In this document: positions 1,669-31,920 of the stretch, piece after piece
Position numbering within the stretch: the first letter of the stretch is position 1
Layout: the number at the start of each line of letters is the position of its first letter
Source: Idiomarina sp.
GTDB lineage: Bacteria > Pseudomonadota > Gammaproteobacteria > Enterobacterales > Alteromonadaceae
DNA: 50,771 bases
Assembly (NCBI GenBank): GCA_020832105.1
Contig: JAFIFH010000063.1
Coordinates: forward strand, 1 to 50,771
Reading direction: 5' to 3'
Notes under the pieces: model-generated
The model's input: only the letters and a program-made list of their open reading frames with translations
What the model was told of the DNA's origin: nothing
The model's database searches: none
Program-made: the position numbers and the translations under genes

Positions 1669-3429
1669 TTAGTAAGTTCGCGCTTTTGGCGGGAAGGCTT
1701 CACGAGTTTTCGGCGACATGTTCACTTCGCGTTTAACCATTGAGTCGCTTTCCGGACGGTACACTGAGTGAACCAGCCAATTTTCATCATCACGCTCTGG
1801 GAAGTCCGCACGGCTGTGCGCACCACGACTTTCCTGGCGGAAGTTTGCTGCCACTGCAGTTGAGTAAGCAGTTTCCATCAGGTTATCCAGTTCAAGACAC
1901 TCAATACGCTGGGTGTTGAACTCTGAGCTTGTGTCGTCCAGACGCGCGTTGTTCAAACGCTCTCTGATTTCATTCAGCTCTTTCAACCCGCTTTCCATGG
2001 CGTCGCCTTCACGGAATACCGAGAAGTTCAACTGCATACAGCTTTGTAAATCTTTTTTGATTTGAGCCGGGTCTTCACCTTTTTGCGTGTTGTTCCAGCG
2101 CTCAGTACGTGCCATCGCTTGTTCAATATCGCTGGCTGACGCGTCACGTGCTTCGACATTGGCCGCCAGAGCTTCACCTAAGTGCAGACCAGTCGCGCGA
2201 CCAAAGACCACTAAATCAAGCAGTGAGTTACCACCTAAGCGGTTCGCACCATGGACAGACACACAGGCGATTTCACCACAGGCGAATAAACCTTGAATCG
2301 GCGTTGCCTGACCATGTTCATCAATTTGTAACGCCTGACCGTTCACGTTAGTGGGAATACCACCCATCATGTAGTGACAGGTTGGGATAACCGGAATCGG
2401 CTCAACCGCAGGGTCAACATGAGCAAAGGTTTTTGCCAGGTCACACACACCAGGTAAGCGAGACTCAAGAACATCGCGCCCCAAATGGTCAAGCTTCAGT
2501 TTAATGTGCGTTCCCCAAGGGCCTTCACAACCACGACCTTCACGGATCTCCGTCATCATTGAGCGGGCTACCACGTCGCGACCAGCGAGGTCTTTGGCAT
2601 TCGGCGCGTAACGCTCCATAAAGCGCTCGCCGTCTTTGTTCAACAGGTAACCACCTTCACCACGACACCCTTCGGTGACCAGTGAACCCGCACCTGCGAT
2701 ACCGGTTGGGTGAAACTGCCACATTTCCATGTCCTGCATAGGAACACCGGCACGCATCGCCATACCTACACCGTCACCAGTGTTGATGTGCGCGTTGGTA
2801 GTCGAGGCATAAATACGCCCTGCACCACCAGTCGCCAAAACTACAGCTTTGGCTTTGATAAAATAAATTTCGCCAGTTTCGATATGTAACGCCGTAGTAC
2901 CCACCACTGCGCCGTCCTGGTTTTTCACTAAATCAAGAGCGAACCATTCGGAAAATACTGTTGTCTTGTTCTTCACGTTTTGCTGGTAAAGCAAATGAAG
3001 AAGTGCGTGACCGGTCCGGTCAGCTGCAGCAGCAGTACGCGCTGCCTGCTCGCCACCAAACTCTTTTGATTGGCCACCGAACGGACGCTGATAGACTTTA
3101 CCGTTTTCGAAACGAGAGAATGGTAAACCCATGTTTTCCATTTCTAAAATGGCTTCAGGACCTGTCTTACACATGTACTCAATCGCGTCCTGGTCACCGA
3201 TGTAATCGGAGCCCTTGACCGTATCGAACATATGCCATTCCCAGTTATCCTCGTGCGCATTACCCAACGCGACGGTAATACCGCCTTGCGCTGAAACCGT
3301 GTGCGAACGGGTTGGAAATACTTTTGACATTAATGCACAGGTCATACCCTGCTGAGAAATCTGTAAAGCAGCGCGCATACCCGCGCCGCCAGCGCCGATA
3401 ACCACGGCATCAAATTGAAGTTCTTTCAT
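1669..3429 (-). CDS. sdhA: Succinate dehydrogenase flavoprotein subunit
   Basis: 586 residues from the ATG at 3429. The open frame extends three codons further to a GTG at 3438, but the ATG lies directly after the sdhD stop and has a GGGGTG ribosome binding site, so I prefer it. SdhA oxidises succinate to fumarate. Visible features are the N-terminal dinucleotide fold ([14 protein letters not shown]), the FAD-attachment segment [10 protein letters not shown] whose His carries the flavin covalently in this family, the HPTG segment of the active site, and [19 protein letters not shown] near the FAD. It is translationally coupled to sdhD and sdhB. Confidence 0.97.
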
Positions 3430-3430
3430 G

Positions 3431-3778
3431 TTATACACCCCACAACACGAACAGGCCGGTTAACCAGTAAGCAATTAAAGCTACGCTCACGATGAATTGC
3501 AGTACACCACGACCCAGAGAATTTTTGACATAATCGGTCAATACCTGCCAGACACCAATCCAGCCATGTGCTAGTAACGCAGTTAGCGCTAGCAAGGTGT
3601 AAACTTTCATCCAAAGATTACTAAATAGCCCTGCCCAGACGTCAAACGTCAGTTGCGGCGTTGCTACAAAGAAACTCACCAGAAATAGAACGTAAGTCAG
3701 TAAGATAATTGCGCTTGCGCGCAGAAGAATAAAGTCGTGCGTACCGCTACGACCGAAACTAGATGCAACCTTTACCAT
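3431..3778 (-). CDS. sdhD: Succinate dehydrogenase membrane anchor subunit D
   Basis: 115 residues with three hydrophobic helices. It anchors SdhAB to the inner membrane and shares heme b and the quinone site with SdhC. The start [18 protein letters not shown] closely matches enterobacterial SdhD, and the segment [16 protein letters not shown] contains the Asp-Tyr pair whose Tyr contacts ubiquinone in the E. coli complex. Its ATG overlaps the sdhC stop by 7 bp, and its stop is one base before the preferred sdhA start. Confidence 0.95.
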
Positions 3779-4146
3779 AACCAGACTCCTGCCAGCACTG
3801 ACAACACGACAGCCAGAGCGATAACCACTTTGGCGCTTAAATTACCTGAGTGCAGTTCTTCCCAGTAGCCAAGGTCCATCATGATATGACGAAGCCCGGA
3901 CAGTAAGTGGTAGCCAAGCGCAGTCAGGATTCCCCAAAGTACGAATTTGACCAATGGGTTGGCCATCACGCTGGCTGCCTGGGCAAAGCCCTCTGGGGAT
4001 GACAATGAAATAGCGAATAACCACACCAACAAACCCATAGTAACCAGCATAATAACGCCGGAGACTCGGTGTAAGATCGATGCAATCGCAGAAGGTGGAA
4101 AACTTATTGTGTTAAGTTCTAAATTAACAGGTCTTTGTTTTTTCAC
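3772..4146 (-). CDS. sdhC: Succinate dehydrogenase cytochrome b556 subunit C
   Basis: 124 residues if started at the GTG at 4146, which gives MKKQRPVNLELNTISFPP, nearly the E. coli SdhC N-terminus, with an AAAGG-type ribosome binding site upstream. The frame is open to an ATG at 4230, but that extension is not SdhC-like and covers the predicted sdh promoter (4188-4216), so I reject it. Three transmembrane helices are visible. SASILHRVSG-like sequence (AIASILHRVSGV) contributes to the quinone site, and the His in LLSGLRHIMMDLG is the family heme b ligand. First gene of the sdhCDAB-sucA operon. Confidence 0.93.
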   Translation of the reverse strand: MKKQRPVNLELNTISFPPSAIASILHRVSGVIMLVTMGLLVWLFAISLSSPEGFAQAASVMANPLVKFVLWGILTALGYHLLSGLRHIMMDLGYWEELHSGNLSAKVVIALAVVLSVLAGVWLW

Positions 4147-26609: not shown

Positions 26610-29600
26610 CTTCGTCTGCTGTCCTGACGCGCTGGGCGCTGCGCCGCCCTGTCACCGTCTGCATGATATTTCTTAGTATGCTGGTTCTGGGCATTTTGGC
26701 GACCCGTCTGCTCCCGTTGGAGAAAATACCCGGCGTGGATATTCCACAAATTATGATCCAGGTGCCCTACCCGGATGCGTCCCCTGCTGAGGTGGAACGC
26801 TTAATCACCCGCCCACTAGAAGAAGCCCTGGCAACTTTGTCTGGCGTGCAGGAAATGCGCTCGTTCTCCCGTGAGAACGGCGTTGACCTAGTCCTTGATT
26901 TTGCCTGGGACGACAATATTAACGCGCGTAATATCGAGGTGCGAGAGCAAATCGATAGCATCCGCGGCATACTGCCGGTGGACGTAGAGCGCATTTTTGT
27001 TTATCAGTTTAACACCGAAGATTTACCCGTCTTTCAGCTGCGAATCAGTAGTGAAGAAGACCTCAAGTTTGCCTGGGATTTGCTTGAACGGCATCTCAAA
27101 CGCCCGATGGAGCGGGTTGCTGGGGTGTCCCGAGTGGAGCTGTATGGTGTGGATAAACGTGAAATCGTGATTCGCTTGCAGGAAGACGCGATGCGCAGCT
27201 TTGGCCTTACTATCGCTCAAATCAGCGAGCCTCTGCGACGGGCCAATTTTTCATTAACCGCAGGCTATGTTGAGGACGAGCAACAACGTATTTTGCTCAA
27301 CCCTGTGGGAGAATTTCGCTCGCTGGATGATATTCGTGAGCTACATATCACCCGCCATATTCAATTAAAAGACCTCGCCGAGGTCGCCTATGAATTGCCA
27401 GAACGCCGTGACGGACGGCATTTTAATCAATCTTATGCGATTGGTATGAATGTGTATAAGGACTCCACCGCCAACCTGGTGGACGTGTCGGAACGTGCCT
27501 TACAGGTGGTCGAAGCCGCTCGGGTGCATCCGCAGTTCAGCAATATCGATTTAATGTTGATGGACGACACTGCCGCCAGTGTGAAGTCATCGCTCAATGA
27601 CTTATTAATGGCCGGCATGCTGGGCGCTTTCCTCTCGGTGATTGTGCTGTACACCTTTTTGCGCCACGCGGTCACCACGTTAATCGTGGTCATCTCGGTG
27701 CCGGTGGCGATTTTCCTAACCCTGGCCGTGATGTATCTGCTTGGTTACAGTCTCAATATTTTATCCATGATGGGACTAATGCTGGCGATTGGCATGCTGG
27801 TGGACAACGCAGTGGTTGTGACTGAAAGCATTCAGCAGGAAGGCGATGCCGAGCGCGGGATAAGCAAGGTTGCACTGGCCGTGATCGCCGGTACACTGAC
27901 CACAGCCATTGTATTTTTACCAACCATCTTCGGCGCTAAAGTGGAGATCACCGTGCTCCTTGAGCACGTTGCCATTGCTATCTGTATTTCCTTACTGGCC
28001 TCTCTTTTAGTCTCACAAACCCTGATCCCCTTGCTGCTGCACCATCTACCAGCACGGTTAATGCAGGAAAAGCCACGTAAGCCGCGCCTGAAGAAGGCCT
28101 ACCTTGCGAGTTTAGGCTGGAGTCAACGCCACCCGAAAAGCACAACTGTGCTGTTGTTATTGTTGCTGGCGTCAACCGTCATCCCCCTAGGTCAGGTCAC
28201 GACTGACCAGCCGGACATGGCCTACAACGATCGCTTAATTCTTAACTATCACCTGAAGGGCCAGTATCGTCTGGATGAGGTACAGGCTGAGGTGGCGTTA
28301 ATGGAAGCATATTTATACGCACACAAAGACGAATTTGAAATTGACCACGTGTATTCGTACTTTGCCACCAACCAGGCATTTTCGATGCTGCTGCTAAAGC
28401 CTGAGCGCAGCCTCTCGGTGAGTCAAATCCAGCAACGGGTGCGCGACAACTGGCCGCATCTAGTGCGCAGCGAACCGCAGTTCGGTTGGCGCGGTGGCAA
28501 TAACGGTGTGCAGATCACCCTCAACGGTACCTCCACCACCCGTTTGCAACAAATTGCTGATGACCTGGTGCCTGTGCTCAGCCAAATTGAAGGGCTTAGC
28601 GACGTGCGCTCAGAGGCGGACTCTGCGCAACACGAACTGCAGATACGGATCAACCGCACCCAGGCTCAGCGCCTGGGGTTATCAACCTCTGCCATTGCGA
28701 ATCAATTAAGCACCGCCTTACGCGGCGATCAGCTACGCTCTTTTCGCCATCACCCAAGCGGCGAGTTACGCATTCGCCTGACCTATGATGAAGCACTGGC
28801 ATCGTCCCTTGAGGCAGTTCAGCAACTGGTGATTGCCCAGTATCAGGGGCAACCGATTGCCCTCGCACACATTGCGGAATTTGAGCTGGTGCCGCGCTTG
28901 AGTGTGATCCGCCGCTATGATCGACAAACCTCCCTGCGGATAGGCGCTAATTTAGACGATATAACCATGCAGCAAGCCCGTGAATCGATCACGCTGGTGA
29001 TGCAGCAAGTGACCCTCGACGAAGGCTATCAATGGAGCCTGGATGGCGGCTTTCGTAGCTTTCAGGAAACCAGTAGCGTGATGCAAATCAATATGCTGCT
29101 CGCCCTGTGTTTAATTTACCTGGTGATGGCGGCGCTGTTTGAATCGCTGCTGTTACCCAACGCAGTGATTGGCTCCCTGCTGATGGCCATGGCCGGGGTC
29201 TTCTGGGCGCTATGGATCACCGGCACGCCGCTGGATATGATGGCCATGATTGGAATGCTGATCTTAATGGGCATTGTGGTCAACAATGGCATTGTACTGG
29301 TGGATAGGATTAACCAGCTAGCCACCACCATGGCGATTGATGAAGCGGTCATGCTGGCAGCCGAACAACGCGTGCGCCCAATTATGATGACCGTCAGCAC
29401 CACCATTCTCGGTTTATTACCCCTCGCATTTGGCACCACGCAGATAGGCGGCGATGGACCTCCCTATGCGCCCATGGCAATCGCTATCGTCGGTGGCTTA
29501 TTATTTTCCACCTTAACCAGTCTGTACTTTGTACCCCACGCATACCGGCGCCTGCTGGCGTGGAAAAGTTACTGGAATAAGGTCATCGCTTACAGCGCTA

Positions 29601-29635
29601 GCCCACGTGTAGCAAGGGGCATAGGCAAAGGCTGA
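26606..29635 (+). CDS. RND efflux pump subunit, second of a pair
   Basis: 1009 residues, HAE1/AcrB class, related to but clearly distinct from its upstream partner. Signatures: RRPVTVCMIFLSMLVLGIL, QIMIQVPYPDASPAEVERL and REQIDSIRGILPVDVERIFV. Helix 4 has Asp400-Asn401 (GMLVDNAVVV) and helix 10 has Asn893 (VVNNGIVLVDRIN), the same pattern of changes from AcrB as in the partner. The central region is short (28050-28140, Lys/Arg-rich), without the insert of the first pump. The start codon overlaps the partner's stop (ATGA). Ends the operon; the next gene has its own promoter. Confidence 0.93.
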   Translation: MTSSAVLTRWALRRPVTVCMIFLSMLVLGILATRLLPLEKIPGVDIPQIMIQVPYPDASPAEVERLITRPLEEALATLSGVQEMRSFSRENGVDLVLDFAWDDNINARNIEVREQIDSIRGILPVDVERIFVYQFNTEDLPVFQLRISSEEDLKFAWDLLERHLKRPMERVAGVSRVELYGVDKREIVIRLQEDAMRSFGLTIAQISEPLRRANFSLTAGYVEDEQQRILLNPVGEFRSLDDIRELHITRHIQLKDLAEVAYELPERRDGRHFNQSYAIGMNVYKDSTANLVDVSERALQVVEAARVHPQFSNIDLMLMDDTAASVKSSLNDLLMAGMLGAFLSVIVLYTFLRHAVTTLIVVISVPVAIFLTLAVMYLLGYSLNILSMMGLMLAIGMLVDNAVVVTESIQQEGDAERGISKVALAVIAGTLTTAIVFLPTIFGAKVEITVLLEHVAIAICISLLASLLVSQTLIPLLLHHLPARLMQEKPRKPRLKKAYLASLGWSQRHPKSTTVLLLLLLASTVIPLGQVTTDQPDMAYNDRLILNYHLKGQYRLDEVQAEVALMEAYLYAHKDEFEIDHVYSYFATNQAFSMLLLKPERSLSVSQIQQRVRDNWPHLVRSEPQFGWRGGNNGVQITLNGTSTTRLQQIADDLVPVLSQIEGLSDVRSEADSAQHELQIRINRTQAQRLGLSTSAIANQLSTALRGDQLRSFRHHPSGELRIRLTYDEALASSLEAVQQLVIAQYQGQPIALAHIAEFELVPRLSVIRRYDRQTSLRIGANLDDITMQQARESITLVMQQVTLDEGYQWSLDGGFRSFQETSSVMQINMLLALCLIYLVMAALFESLLLPNAVIGSLLMAMAGVFWALWITGTPLDMMAMIGMLILMGIVVNNGIVLVDRINQLATTMAIDEAVMLAAEQRVRPIMMTVSTTILGLLPLAFGTTQIGGDGPPYAPMAIAIVGGLLFSTLTSLYFVPHAYRRLLAWKSYWNKVIAYSASPRVARGIGKG

Positions 29636-29660
29636 AATGGCGGTCGGTTTTCTGTATAAT
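29632..29660 (+). promoter_or_regulatory. Predicted sigma-70 promoter of the KamA-family gene
   Basis: CTGAAA (29632-29637) is followed by a 17 bp spacer and a perfect TATAAT (29655-29660). The leader would be about 55 nt. The -35 box overlaps the stop of the preceding pump gene, so the aminomutase gene can be expressed independently. Confidence 0.6.
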
Positions 29661-29722
29661 ATGACGCCTTTGATATGATCATCCTTTTGCTTTAGCAAAC
29701 AGAACGGGGAAGATAGGCATAT

Positions 29723-31063
29723 ATGCAGCAAGTAGTTAACATCCAACCGCCACAGTTTTTGCCGCGCAAATTTAAGGTGTATCAGCATCGTCAGCTGGAC
29801 AAGATAGAAGCGTTGAAACACGTGCCTGACGAGATGCTGTTTGAAATGAAAGTGGTTGCCAATGTATTACCGTTTCGGGTCAACGAGTATGTGTTCAACG
29901 AGTTGATCGATTGGGACAATGTGCCCAATGACCCGGTGTTTCAATTGGTGTTTCCACAGCGTGAAATGATTGACCCGAAAGCCTACGATCGTATGGCCGA
30001 GTTGATGCAAAGTGGTGGCACCACGCAGGAGATTTTTCAGCTGGCAGAAGTGCTGCGCGCTGAGATGAACCCGCACCCGGCCGGTCAGACGGAGATGAAT
30101 GTACCGACGATTGATGGTGAGCCGCTCGAAGGCATGCAGCATAAATATCGTGAAACGGTATTGTTCTTCCCGTCACAAGGTCAGTATTGCCACTCTTATT
30201 GCACCTTTTGCTTTCGCTGGGCGCAGTTCGTCGGTAAATCGTTACGCATGAACTCCAATGACGCCGAGTCGTTGCATGCATATTTAGAAGAGCATAAAGA
30301 AGTCACTGACCTATTGGTCACTGGTGGTGACCCTATGGTCATGCGCACGAAAAAACTGCGTGAGTACCTGGAGCCACTGACCGACGCTAAATATGACCAT
30401 GTGCAGACGATCCGTATTGGTAGTAAATCACTGACCTTCTGGCCCTACCGGTATATCAGCGATCCCGACGCGGATGAGCTGCTTGCGCTATTGGAAAAGC
30501 TGGTCAAAGCCGGTAAGCACGTGTCCTTTATGGCGCACTTTAATCACCCTCAGGAAATGCGCACCGAAGTTTGTCACGAAGCAATCCGTCGTATTCAAGC
30601 AACAGGTGTGGTGATTCGCTGTCAGGCACCGCTATTGAATAACCTCAACAATGATTCACAAGCCTGGGTAGAGATGTGGCAAGAGCAGGTTCGTCTTGGC
30701 ATGGTGCCCTATTACATGTTTGTGGAGCGTGACACCGGCGCTAAGCGGTATTTCGAAGTACCGCTCTATCGTTGCTGGGAAATCTTCCGCGAGGCTTACA
30801 AGCAGGTTTCAGGTCTTGCGCGCACGGTTCGCGGTCCTTCTATGTCAGCAGGCCCGGGTAAAGTTGAAGTGCAAGGGGTCAGCGAAATTGCTGGCGAGAA
30901 AGTCTTTGTGCTGCGCTTTATCCAAGCGCGAAACCCAGATTGGGTACAGCGTCCGTTTTTCGCTAAGTACGATGAGACAGCGACCTGGTTGAATGATCTG
31001 CAACCTGCATTTGGTGAAGACAAGTTCTTCTGGCAGGACGAATATGAAGCCATGCAAGGCTAA
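29723..31063 (+). CDS. KamA-family radical SAM aminomutase, substrate uncertain
   Basis: 446 residues. The radical SAM cluster motif is Cys156, Cys160 and Cys163 (CHSYCTFC), followed by GGDP at 201-204. A gapless comparison, from memory, with Clostridium subterminale lysine 2,3-aminomutase from the PYY segment to the PLP lysine places Lys380 (AGPGKVEV) at PLP-binding Lys337, and Arg165 at the carboxylate-binding Arg134. The two Asp residues that hold the lysine side chain (Asp293, Asp330) are replaced by Arg336 and Ser373. Glutamate 2,3-aminomutase has Lys and Asn there, so an acidic substrate is plausible. It is longer than EpmB (about 340), and no acetyltransferase partner (AblB) is near. 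Single gene between its own promoter and terminator. Confidence 0.85.
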   Translation: MQQVVNIQPPQFLPRKFKVYQHRQLDKIEALKHVPDEMLFEMKVVANVLPFRVNEYVFNELIDWDNVPNDPVFQLVFPQREMIDPKAYDRMAELMQSGGTTQEIFQLAEVLRAEMNPHPAGQTEMNVPTIDGEPLEGMQHKYRETVLFFPSQGQYCHSYCTFCFRWAQFVGKSLRMNSNDAESLHAYLEEHKEVTDLLVTGGDPMVMRTKKLREYLEPLTDAKYDHVQTIRIGSKSLTFWPYRYISDPDADELLALLEKLVKAGKHVSFMAHFNHPQEMRTEVCHEAIRRIQATGVVIRCQAPLLNNLNNDSQAWVEMWQEQVRLGMVPYYMFVERDTGAKRYFEVPLYRCWEIFREAYKQVSGLARTVRGPSMSAGPGKVEVQGVSEIAGEKVFVLRFIQARNPDWVQRPFFAKYDETATWLNDLQPAFGEDKFFWQDEYEAMQG

Positions 31064-31085
31064 TAAGTAGCTGCTCACTGCAGAC

Positions 31086-31121
31086 AAAAAAGGCGCGCCG
31101 GGTCATCGGCGCGCCTTTTTT
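31086..31121 (+). terminator. Bidirectional intrinsic terminator after the KamA-family gene
   Basis: Perfect 15 bp inverted repeat (31086-31100 with 31107-31121, GGCGCGCCG core) with a 6 nt GGTCAT loop, flanked by six A and six T. It serves the aminomutase gene and the convergent kdsB operon, whose last gene ends at 31150. Confidence 0.92.
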
Positions 31122-31149
31122 AATCGCTAAGTGAGGTCAATACGCTGGT

Positions 31150-31920
31150 TTAACTGCCACCCAGGGACTTACGTACGCGCTCGAGATCCTCTGGGGTGTC
31201 AATACCTGGGGGCGGCTCAGCAATGGCCTGAGCCACGTGAATACGCTCACCGTACCACAACACTCTGAGTTGCTCTAATGACTCGAGACGCTCCAGCGGG
31301 CTGGCGTCCCACTCAGCATAACGGTGAATAAAGCCCGCTCGATAAGCATAGATGCCAACGTGGCGCAAATAGCCCTCGCTGAGTTCTGCGACATCCCCCG
31401 GTTGCTGAGCGGCCATAAACTGTGCCCGATCATACGGGATCGGCGCACGACTGAAATATAAAGCATAGCCACTACCATCCAGTACCACTTTGACTGCATT
31501 AGGATTGAATACTTCGTCCACGCTAGTCATTGGTACCGCCAGTGTCGCCATCGGCGCGTTACGCTGAGAGGCTAAATTTTCAGCTACCTGACGAATAATT
31601 TGCGGCGGTATTTGCGGCTCGTCGCCTTGCACGTTCACCACCACTTCGTCATCCGCCAGTGCCATTAAATCAATCACTTCAGCTAAACGCTCAGTGCCGG
31701 AGCGGTGTTCCGTTGAGGTCATCACAGCCTGGCCGCCAAACGACTTCACTGCGTCGACAATGCGTTGATCATCAGTGGCCACAATAACTTCCGCCGCACC
31801 ACTTTCCAAAGCACGCTCATAAACGTGCTGGATCATGGGCTTGCCCGCAATATCCGCCAAAGGCTTGCCGGGTAACCTGCTCGAGTCGTGACGCGCGGGA
31901 ATGACAACGGTAAAGCTCAT
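31150..31920 (-). CDS. kdsB: 3-deoxy-manno-octulosonate cytidylyltransferase
   Basis: 256 residues. It activates Kdo with CTP to CMP-Kdo for lipopolysaccharide inner core synthesis. Signatures: [20 protein letters not shown] for nucleotide binding, [46 protein letters not shown] with the metal-binding Asp, and [11 protein letters not shown]. The ATG overlaps the ycaR stop (ATGA). Last gene of the comEC-msbA-lpxK-ycaR-kdsB run, next to a strong terminator. Confidence 0.96.

Follow-up and report, generated by a model that had tools for sequence, protein, structure and literature searches.

A KamA-like gene was analyzed in a stretch of 50,771 nucleotides from Idiomarina sp. (GenBank assembly GCA_020832105.1, contig JAFIFH010000063.1, positions 1 to 50,771; hereafter the window). 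The open reading frame (ORF) at positions 29723 to 31063 is a real gene, and its product is probably (roughly 0.65) a pyridoxal 5'-phosphate (PLP)-dependent radical S-adenosylmethionine (SAM) glutamate 2,3-aminomutase, which would interconvert L-alpha-glutamate and beta-glutamate (3-aminoglutarate). The features of the locus are as follows, with the coordinates of residues computed from residue numbers and lysine 2,3-aminomutase abbreviated as LAM:

29723..31063, + strand: KamA-like radical SAM/PLP aminomutase gene, ATG start, 446 amino acids (aa); most likely a glutamate 2,3-aminomutase
30188..30211, + strand: cluster cysteines C156-x3-C160-x2-C163 (codons 156 to 163), with R165 next; invariant in 42 rows
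30728..30730, + strand: codon of Arg336, at the position of LAM Asp293
30839..30841, + strand: codon of Ser373, at the position of LAM Asp330
30860..30862, + strand: codon of Lys380, the putative PLP Schiff-base lysine by homology with LAM K337
29632..29660, + strand: promoter-like CTGAAA-17-TATAAT; one found, 1.6 expected by chance
31086..31121, no strand assigned: convergent terminator (A6, 9-bp GC stem, 6-nt loop, T6), read by eye and shared with kdsB (- strand)

The traits of the KamA superfamily are present in the product, namely, the CxxxCxxC cluster motif, the PLP lysine, and, in the predicted model, a LAM-like fold. It scored 139.8 bits against TIGR00238 (KamA family; cut-off, 199.2; E = 9.5e-41), and judged by this score it is kin of that family lying outside the curated subfamily. 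Lower scores were obtained with TIGR03820 (AblA; 115.1 bits, cut-off 525.4), the AblA-like-2 model (111.6, cut-off 396.25), TIGR04368 (clostridial-type glutamate 2,3-aminomutase; 98.1, cut-off 650), TIGR03821 (EpmB; 96.3, cut-off 369.3), and TIGR04468 (arginine 2,3-aminomutase; 94.4, cut-off 600). Three relatives, from an actinomycete, a phage, and a contig with an archaeal TFB gene, likewise fell under all six curated cut-offs. In a tree of 69 rows (quick method, SH-aLRT), the window protein was placed with full support in a 52-row clade separate from the LAM-type and EpmB-like rows, with two long rows inside it, L183 and L184, being unsurely placed. For residue counts, the clade was taken as the 131 rows at least 46% identical to the window protein, representing 126 distinct sequences; at least one species, Pseudoalteromonas caenipelagi, was entered twice (L008 and L035).

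Cys156, Cys160, Cys163, Arg165, and Lys380 were invariant in the 42-sequence alignment, which bears out their retention as described in an earlier note made from the sequence alone. A phmmer alignment with LAM (2a5h) paired residues 337 to 383 with LAM 294 to 340 without a gap, so R336 corresponds to D293, S373 to D330, and K380 to K337, in agreement with the same note. Arg336 was kept in 131/131 clade rows while Asp occupied LAM position 293 in 13/13 LAM-type rows, indicating that this Arg is not due to chance. Position 373 held Ser in 124 clade rows, Val in 6 (all actinomycete), and Ile in 1; as read from these rows, Ser373 is not a strict signature of the clade, and Arg336 appears to be the informative change, offering a simple residue-level handle for re-annotation. 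Considering both positions over 166 rows, the pairs were R/S (127), R/V (6), R/I (3), D/D (14), D/E (14), E/I (1), and M/I (1), with Asp/Glu found in the 14 EpmB-like rows. R165, R336, R367, R370, and K380 occurred in all 131 clade rows and R299 in 128.

The best interpretation is an acidic substrate, with glutamate as first choice, and it appears well supported short of an assay, because the clade-wide Arg, a nested macrolactam-type member, and a glutamate-type transporter in Halomonadaceae agree independently; the proposal in the earlier note that a basic residue here favors an acidic substrate over lysine thus gained support. Beta-glutamate is an intermediate on the way to incednine, where disrupting the radical SAM gene idnL4 confirmed that this gene takes part in forming the starter unit (available sections of PMC11284099). 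In the pretilactam cluster, plmK (450 aa) was read as a glutamate 2,3-aminomutase, the name of its matched record being L-lysine 2,3-aminomutase, and it adjoins a gene for a 419-aa PLP aminotransferase (available sections of PMC6631532). A KamA-like gene of Streptomyces sp. NBC_00334 (L147) lies beside genes for a PLP enzyme, an AMP ligase, and a polyketide synthase (PKS) according to Pfam; its product belongs to the clade, keeps R336, and is 48% identical to the window protein, and at another locus (L140) the aminomutase gene likewise has a PLP-enzyme gene as its partner, whose product shares 50% identity with the PLP enzyme of L147. Since the actinomycete rows were nested within the gammaproteobacterial rows of the 69-row tree, glutamate as the common substrate is the simpler reading.

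The transporter evidence came from named genomes, a scan of which gave at least 558 relatives; the best 80 were kept, the ranking reflecting similarity to the window protein's known relatives. A TAXI binding-protein gene lies downstream on the same strand in 16/17 Halomonadaceae loci, 200 to 367 bases from the aminomutase gene in the 10 loci measured, and a fused TRAP permease and UspA follow in 15 of the 16, the remaining locus (L084) ending inside the first of these. These counts were made by tblastn, the ORF calling of the neighbor analysis having dropped the aminomutase gene from six or more of the Halomonadaceae loci, and they constitute one line of evidence rather than sixteen because all the loci come from one bacterial family. 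One such binding protein (L054) matched VcGluP (8s4j) with an E value of 1.1e-117, keeping its V44, Y45, Y46, S75, Q93, H123, E125, G156, Y200, and G203 and differing at S40, D157, and M201. VcGluP bound L-glutamate at 0.065 uM, with no aspartate or lysine binding seen (available sections of PMC11574862).

Several observations weigh against glutamate as the substrate. The expected activity of IdnL4 was not observed in vitro, and its making of beta-glutamate was backed by gene disruption and feeding only (available sections of PMC11284099); moreover, the comparison with IdnL4 and PlmK was made via L147 from a similar cluster, not with these proteins themselves, and the L147 type deviates, with R299 replaced by Tyr (3 rows) and S373 by Val (6 rows). 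Further actinomycete members occupy clusters of different kinds, namely, a Rhodococcus set of cupin, N-hydroxylase, and tRNA-ligase-like genes and, in two Streptomyces contexts, nonribosomal peptide synthetase (NRPS)-type genes, while the neighborhood of a Nocardia member showed no such biosynthetic set. One Halomonadaceae locus (L073) had no such transporter in the 1.1 kb past the gene, the TAXI/TRAP set was found by tblastn in 0/63 of the other named loci (best 80 of at least 558), and beta-glutamate occurs 0 times in the available text of the VcGluP paper (PMC11574862). Further LAM residues are replaced (R112 by Lys141, R116 by Thr145, R136 by Gln168, and Y290 by Phe333), so the pocket is altered at more than one position. 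The predicted model is less sure near R336, with a mean predicted local distance difference test (pLDDT) score of 76 for residues 331 to 340, and has pLDDT values of 53 and 48 for residues 161 to 180, after the cluster loop. In addition, the score for the clostridial-type model TIGR04368 is far under its cut-off, the window lineage lacks any neighbor indicating glutamate, and no activity report for any clade member was found in the literature searched.

Other explanations were considered alongside glutamate synthesis. Unlikely, though the most serious of them, is that the same enzyme is put to the opposite use, with environmental beta-glutamate being imported and converted to L-glutamate for carbon and nitrogen. 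The LAM-type reaction is reversible, which would allow this, and the Halomonadaceae gene adjoins an importer-type TRAP system; the characterized relative of that importer, VcGluP, prefers L-glutamate, however, and no such transporter adjoins the aminomutase gene in named loci outside Halomonadaceae, Idiomarina included (best 80 of at least 558). Seawater, for its part, contains beta-glutamic acid that rises with depth (available sections of PMC8269262). More doubtful still is another acidic or polar substrate (glutamine, 2-aminoadipate, or an acylated or phosphorylated amino acid) serving a small specialized pathway: R336 would suit any carboxylate side chain, R299, R367, and R370 are three further conserved arginines, and the actinomycete members in NRPS or unusual biosynthetic clusters suggest that substrates may vary, but the conserved neighbors in gammaproteobacterial loci track lineages, with none resembling a shared biosynthetic partner (gene calling missed at least 6 of these 80 loci). 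Aspartate is excluded by logic, as a 2,3-shift yields aspartate again.

An ordinary LAM with a rearranged amine site is highly improbable. Although lysine 2,3-aminomutase is the name given in 13 of 19 listed plasmid records (identity of 46% or more), both amine-holding aspartates are absent (R336 and S373), the AblA score is 115.1 bits against a cut-off of 525.4, the genome (92.8% complete) has no match to AblB, and an Arg would repel the lysine amine. A likely glutamate 2,3-aminomutase clade, many members of which are named as lysine enzymes, would supply a testable gene for other makers of beta-glutamate.

For the favored glutamate 2,3-aminomutase, homology with LAM suggests that a [4Fe-4S] cluster on C156, C160, and C163 would split SAM to give a 5'-deoxyadenosyl radical, while glutamate, with its alpha-carboxylate held by Arg165, would be bound as an external aldimine on PLP freed from Lys380. 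The radical would then abstract a hydrogen from C3, and the nitrogen would move from C2 to C3. Where LAM has Asp293, Arg336 may hold the gamma-carboxylate rather than a lysine amine, perhaps assisted by R299, R367, and R370 if these conserved arginines reach the substrate. What the analysis shows directly is the homology, the residue positions, the fold match, membership in the clade, and the gene neighbors of relatives; the substrate, the direction, and the role are inferred.

Same-genus copies (88 to 89% identical) were present in 4/16 other genomes. Compared with one of them (L004), the nonsynonymous (dN) and synonymous (dS) substitution rates were 0.075 and 3.07 (saturated) by NG86 and 0.072 and 1.61 by YN00, dS being not computable for the other four pairs tried. 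The gene was found in 1/17 other genomes of the family (71%) and 1/24 other genomes of the order (58%, with an in-frame TAG), and 30/274 gammaproteobacterial genomes, counting its own, had a match above 500 bits. The best 80 of at least 558 named relatives comprised Marinobacter (23), Halomonadaceae (17), Pseudoalteromonas (6), Idiomarina (2), and Ferrimonas (2), 50 together, and also included Ectothiorhodospira, Thioalkalivibrio, Denitrificimonas, and a Nitrosomonas metagenome-assembled genome; the closest named kin among these 80 were Idiomarina (76%), in which the aminomutase gene adjoins kdsB too. Plasmid relatives, 46 to 55% identical over most of the length, occurred in Streptomyces, Rhodococcus, Nocardia, Amycolatopsis, Nonomuraea, Mycetohabitans, and Burkholderia, while the clostridial-type enzyme (TIGR04368) gave no match over cut-off in 398 Pseudomonadota genomes.

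Some relatives stood apart. L183 (G055:C1:748500-752500) is nearly full-length and 33% identical, and its genome also has a clade member; it lacks two of the three cluster cysteines as well as both the carboxylate Arg and the PLP Lys, and may be a pseudoenzyme of a radical SAM aminomutase. L189 and L190, on Rhizobium etli and Bradyrhizobium plasmids, form an outer subfamily (33 to 34%) with Arg at the 336 position and a PLP loop one residue shorter, and their neighbors include either an annotated ectoine synthase or genes for gamma-glutamyltransferase and ATP-grasp proteins. Together with a clade member, the Rhodococcus sp. DK176 plasmid pDK3 (L142) carries cupin, SidA/IucD/PvdA-type monooxygenase, class I tRNA-ligase-like, and ATP-grasp genes, a set that we take to be reminiscent of N-N-bond-forming pathways.

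The neighbors of the gene in the window are RND pump genes and kdsB, with no macrolactam cluster, and no operon partner was seen in the window lineage; the lpxK-Trm112-kdsB block is retained in 12 same-genus genomes without the aminomutase gene. The earlier note had given the gene its own promoter and terminator, of which the terminator held up: GGCGCGCCG-6 nt-CGGCGCGCC-T6 was read by eye at 31092 to 31121, and because A6 directly precedes the stem, it is common to the convergent kdsB. This bidirectional terminator (31086 to 31121) was unlisted by the pattern scan, probably because its flanking A6/T6 pairs lengthen the stem into the T tail. The promoter fared worse, since positions 29400 to 31300 contained one promoter-like match against 1.6 expected from shuffles, and the 87 bases between the end of the upstream RND gene and the start codon make read-through into the aminomutase gene possible. 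A Na+ riboswitch has been reported for ablA and eam (available sections of PMC9337991); an Rfam scan of the window gave no match over threshold, so the window has no riboswitch of this kind. The absence of an adjacent beta-lysine acetyltransferase, also stated in that note, was confirmed and extends genome-wide, with no match to the AblB acetyltransferase family in the whole genome at 92.8% completeness.

With less confidence than for the substrate, the most likely cellular role is the production of beta-glutamate, which would serve the cell as an anionic and metabolically inert solute. This compound is among the known compatible solutes (available sections of PMC1224877), and the host genome (92.8% complete) has no ectoine synthase. 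Two halophile proxies, examined in 274 evenly sampled gammaproteobacterial genomes, count against this role. Ectoine synthase occurred in 8/30 carriers and 30/244 others, a weak difference (Fisher p = 0.046, not corrected for kinship), and the proteome acid/base ratio was 1.071 in 23 carriers versus 1.055 in 33 non-carriers (p = 0.58), GC differing strongly between the two sets. For acidity, up to 20 kb of the first contig was taken from each of 30 carriers and 40 non-carriers, and genomes with too little sequence were dropped, leaving 23 and 33; the 40 were the top of a list of non-carriers with another KamA-family match, six having been passed over (five less than 90% complete, and G084 by oversight). 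The family is not claimed as a halophile marker, the acidity proxy being null and the ectoine proxy weak, and the best 80 of at least 558 named relatives, being ranked by likeness, cannot show a halophile association. Thus, of the suggestion that an osmolyte would suit a marine host, what stands is that the closest named carriers mostly belong to marine or halophilic genera and that the host, by its Idiomarina-like kin, would be marine; acidity and ectoine co-occurrence lent it little. An osmolyte role is plausible, but the salinity proxies were weak or null and the gene is stand-alone.

Members of the clade were also found on viral contigs. Five IMG/VR contigs from uncultivated phages encode a 58 to 60% identical protein (the products of L024 and L025 being the same), and in 5/5 the gene is directly upstream of one ORF family, identified by PHROGs as terminase large subunit (E = 2.6e-105; only L026 scored). 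The terminase was closest, at 48%, to those of large Sinorhizobium and Pseudomonas phages. Nearby in L026 were holin, methyltransferase, and aminotransferase matches, its aminomutase-like protein having no PHROG match, and among 50,697 named phage records there was no close copy, with 19 weak matches, none covering 80%. As a metabolic gene of a phage, such a copy would be unusual. On the phage contig L152, a second protein with radical-SAM-like cysteines (2741-3958, 405 aa, noted by eye) is encoded several genes before the aminomutase-like one, where it adjoins NAD-epimerase- and DegT-like ORFs, also named by eye. In L028:1-6045 (IMG/VR), the gene (56%) lies beside a TFIIB-type (archaeal TFB) gene (PF00382, E = 7.4e-41), while the other half carries a structural gene resembling those of Pelagibacter phages; the halves point to different hosts, and the contig either belongs to an archaeal virus or was assembled chimerically. 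No further copies like that of L028 were found in viral contigs by scans that detect close relatives only, and the context of its sister (L136) gave nothing useful. A limited literature search found no report of clade members in phage contigs or the TFB contig. Beta-glutamate is an osmolyte of methanogens, increases with depth in two ocean profiles, and, at 730 mM, was the most abundant identified metabolite of Nitrosopumilus maritimus in one study (available sections of PMC8269262), for which no gene was named in the available portions of the literature reached by limited searches. Speculatively, and with low probability, the clade might form an unrecognized main route to marine beta-glutamate, comprising stand-alone enzymes in many Gammaproteobacteria, copies acquired by phages for metabolism, and perhaps a counterpart of this gene in ammonia-oxidizing archaea, the archaeal step resting on one 6-kb, possibly chimeric TFB contig.

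Compared with known systems, the window protein differs from LAM (2a5h, AblA/KamA) in the replaced side-chain-binding Asp pair and the lack of an AblB partner, with 22% identity over 333 aligned residues. EpmB, of elongation factor P beta-lysylation, belongs to the same superfamily, but EpmB-like rows have Asp/Glu where the window protein has R336/S373; one EpmB-like copy, labeled by tree and residues and not scored against TIGR03821, is encoded elsewhere in the genome. The clostridial glutamate 2,3-aminomutase is of the same superfamily, and the window protein would share its reaction; it presumably has a basic residue, Lys332, at LAM position 293 and a Lys/Asn pair where the window protein has Arg/Ser, and its model gave 98.1 bits against 650. 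Probably closest is the IdnL4/PlmK type, which L147 resembles in cluster make-up while sharing the clade and R336 of the window protein; L147 has Val and Tyr in place of Ser373 and Arg299, and the window gene, unlike that type, is stand-alone with no PKS. The window gene is probably close to a known, biochemically unproven subtype and is a stand-alone, widespread variant in a known superfamily, uncaptured by the curated models tried.
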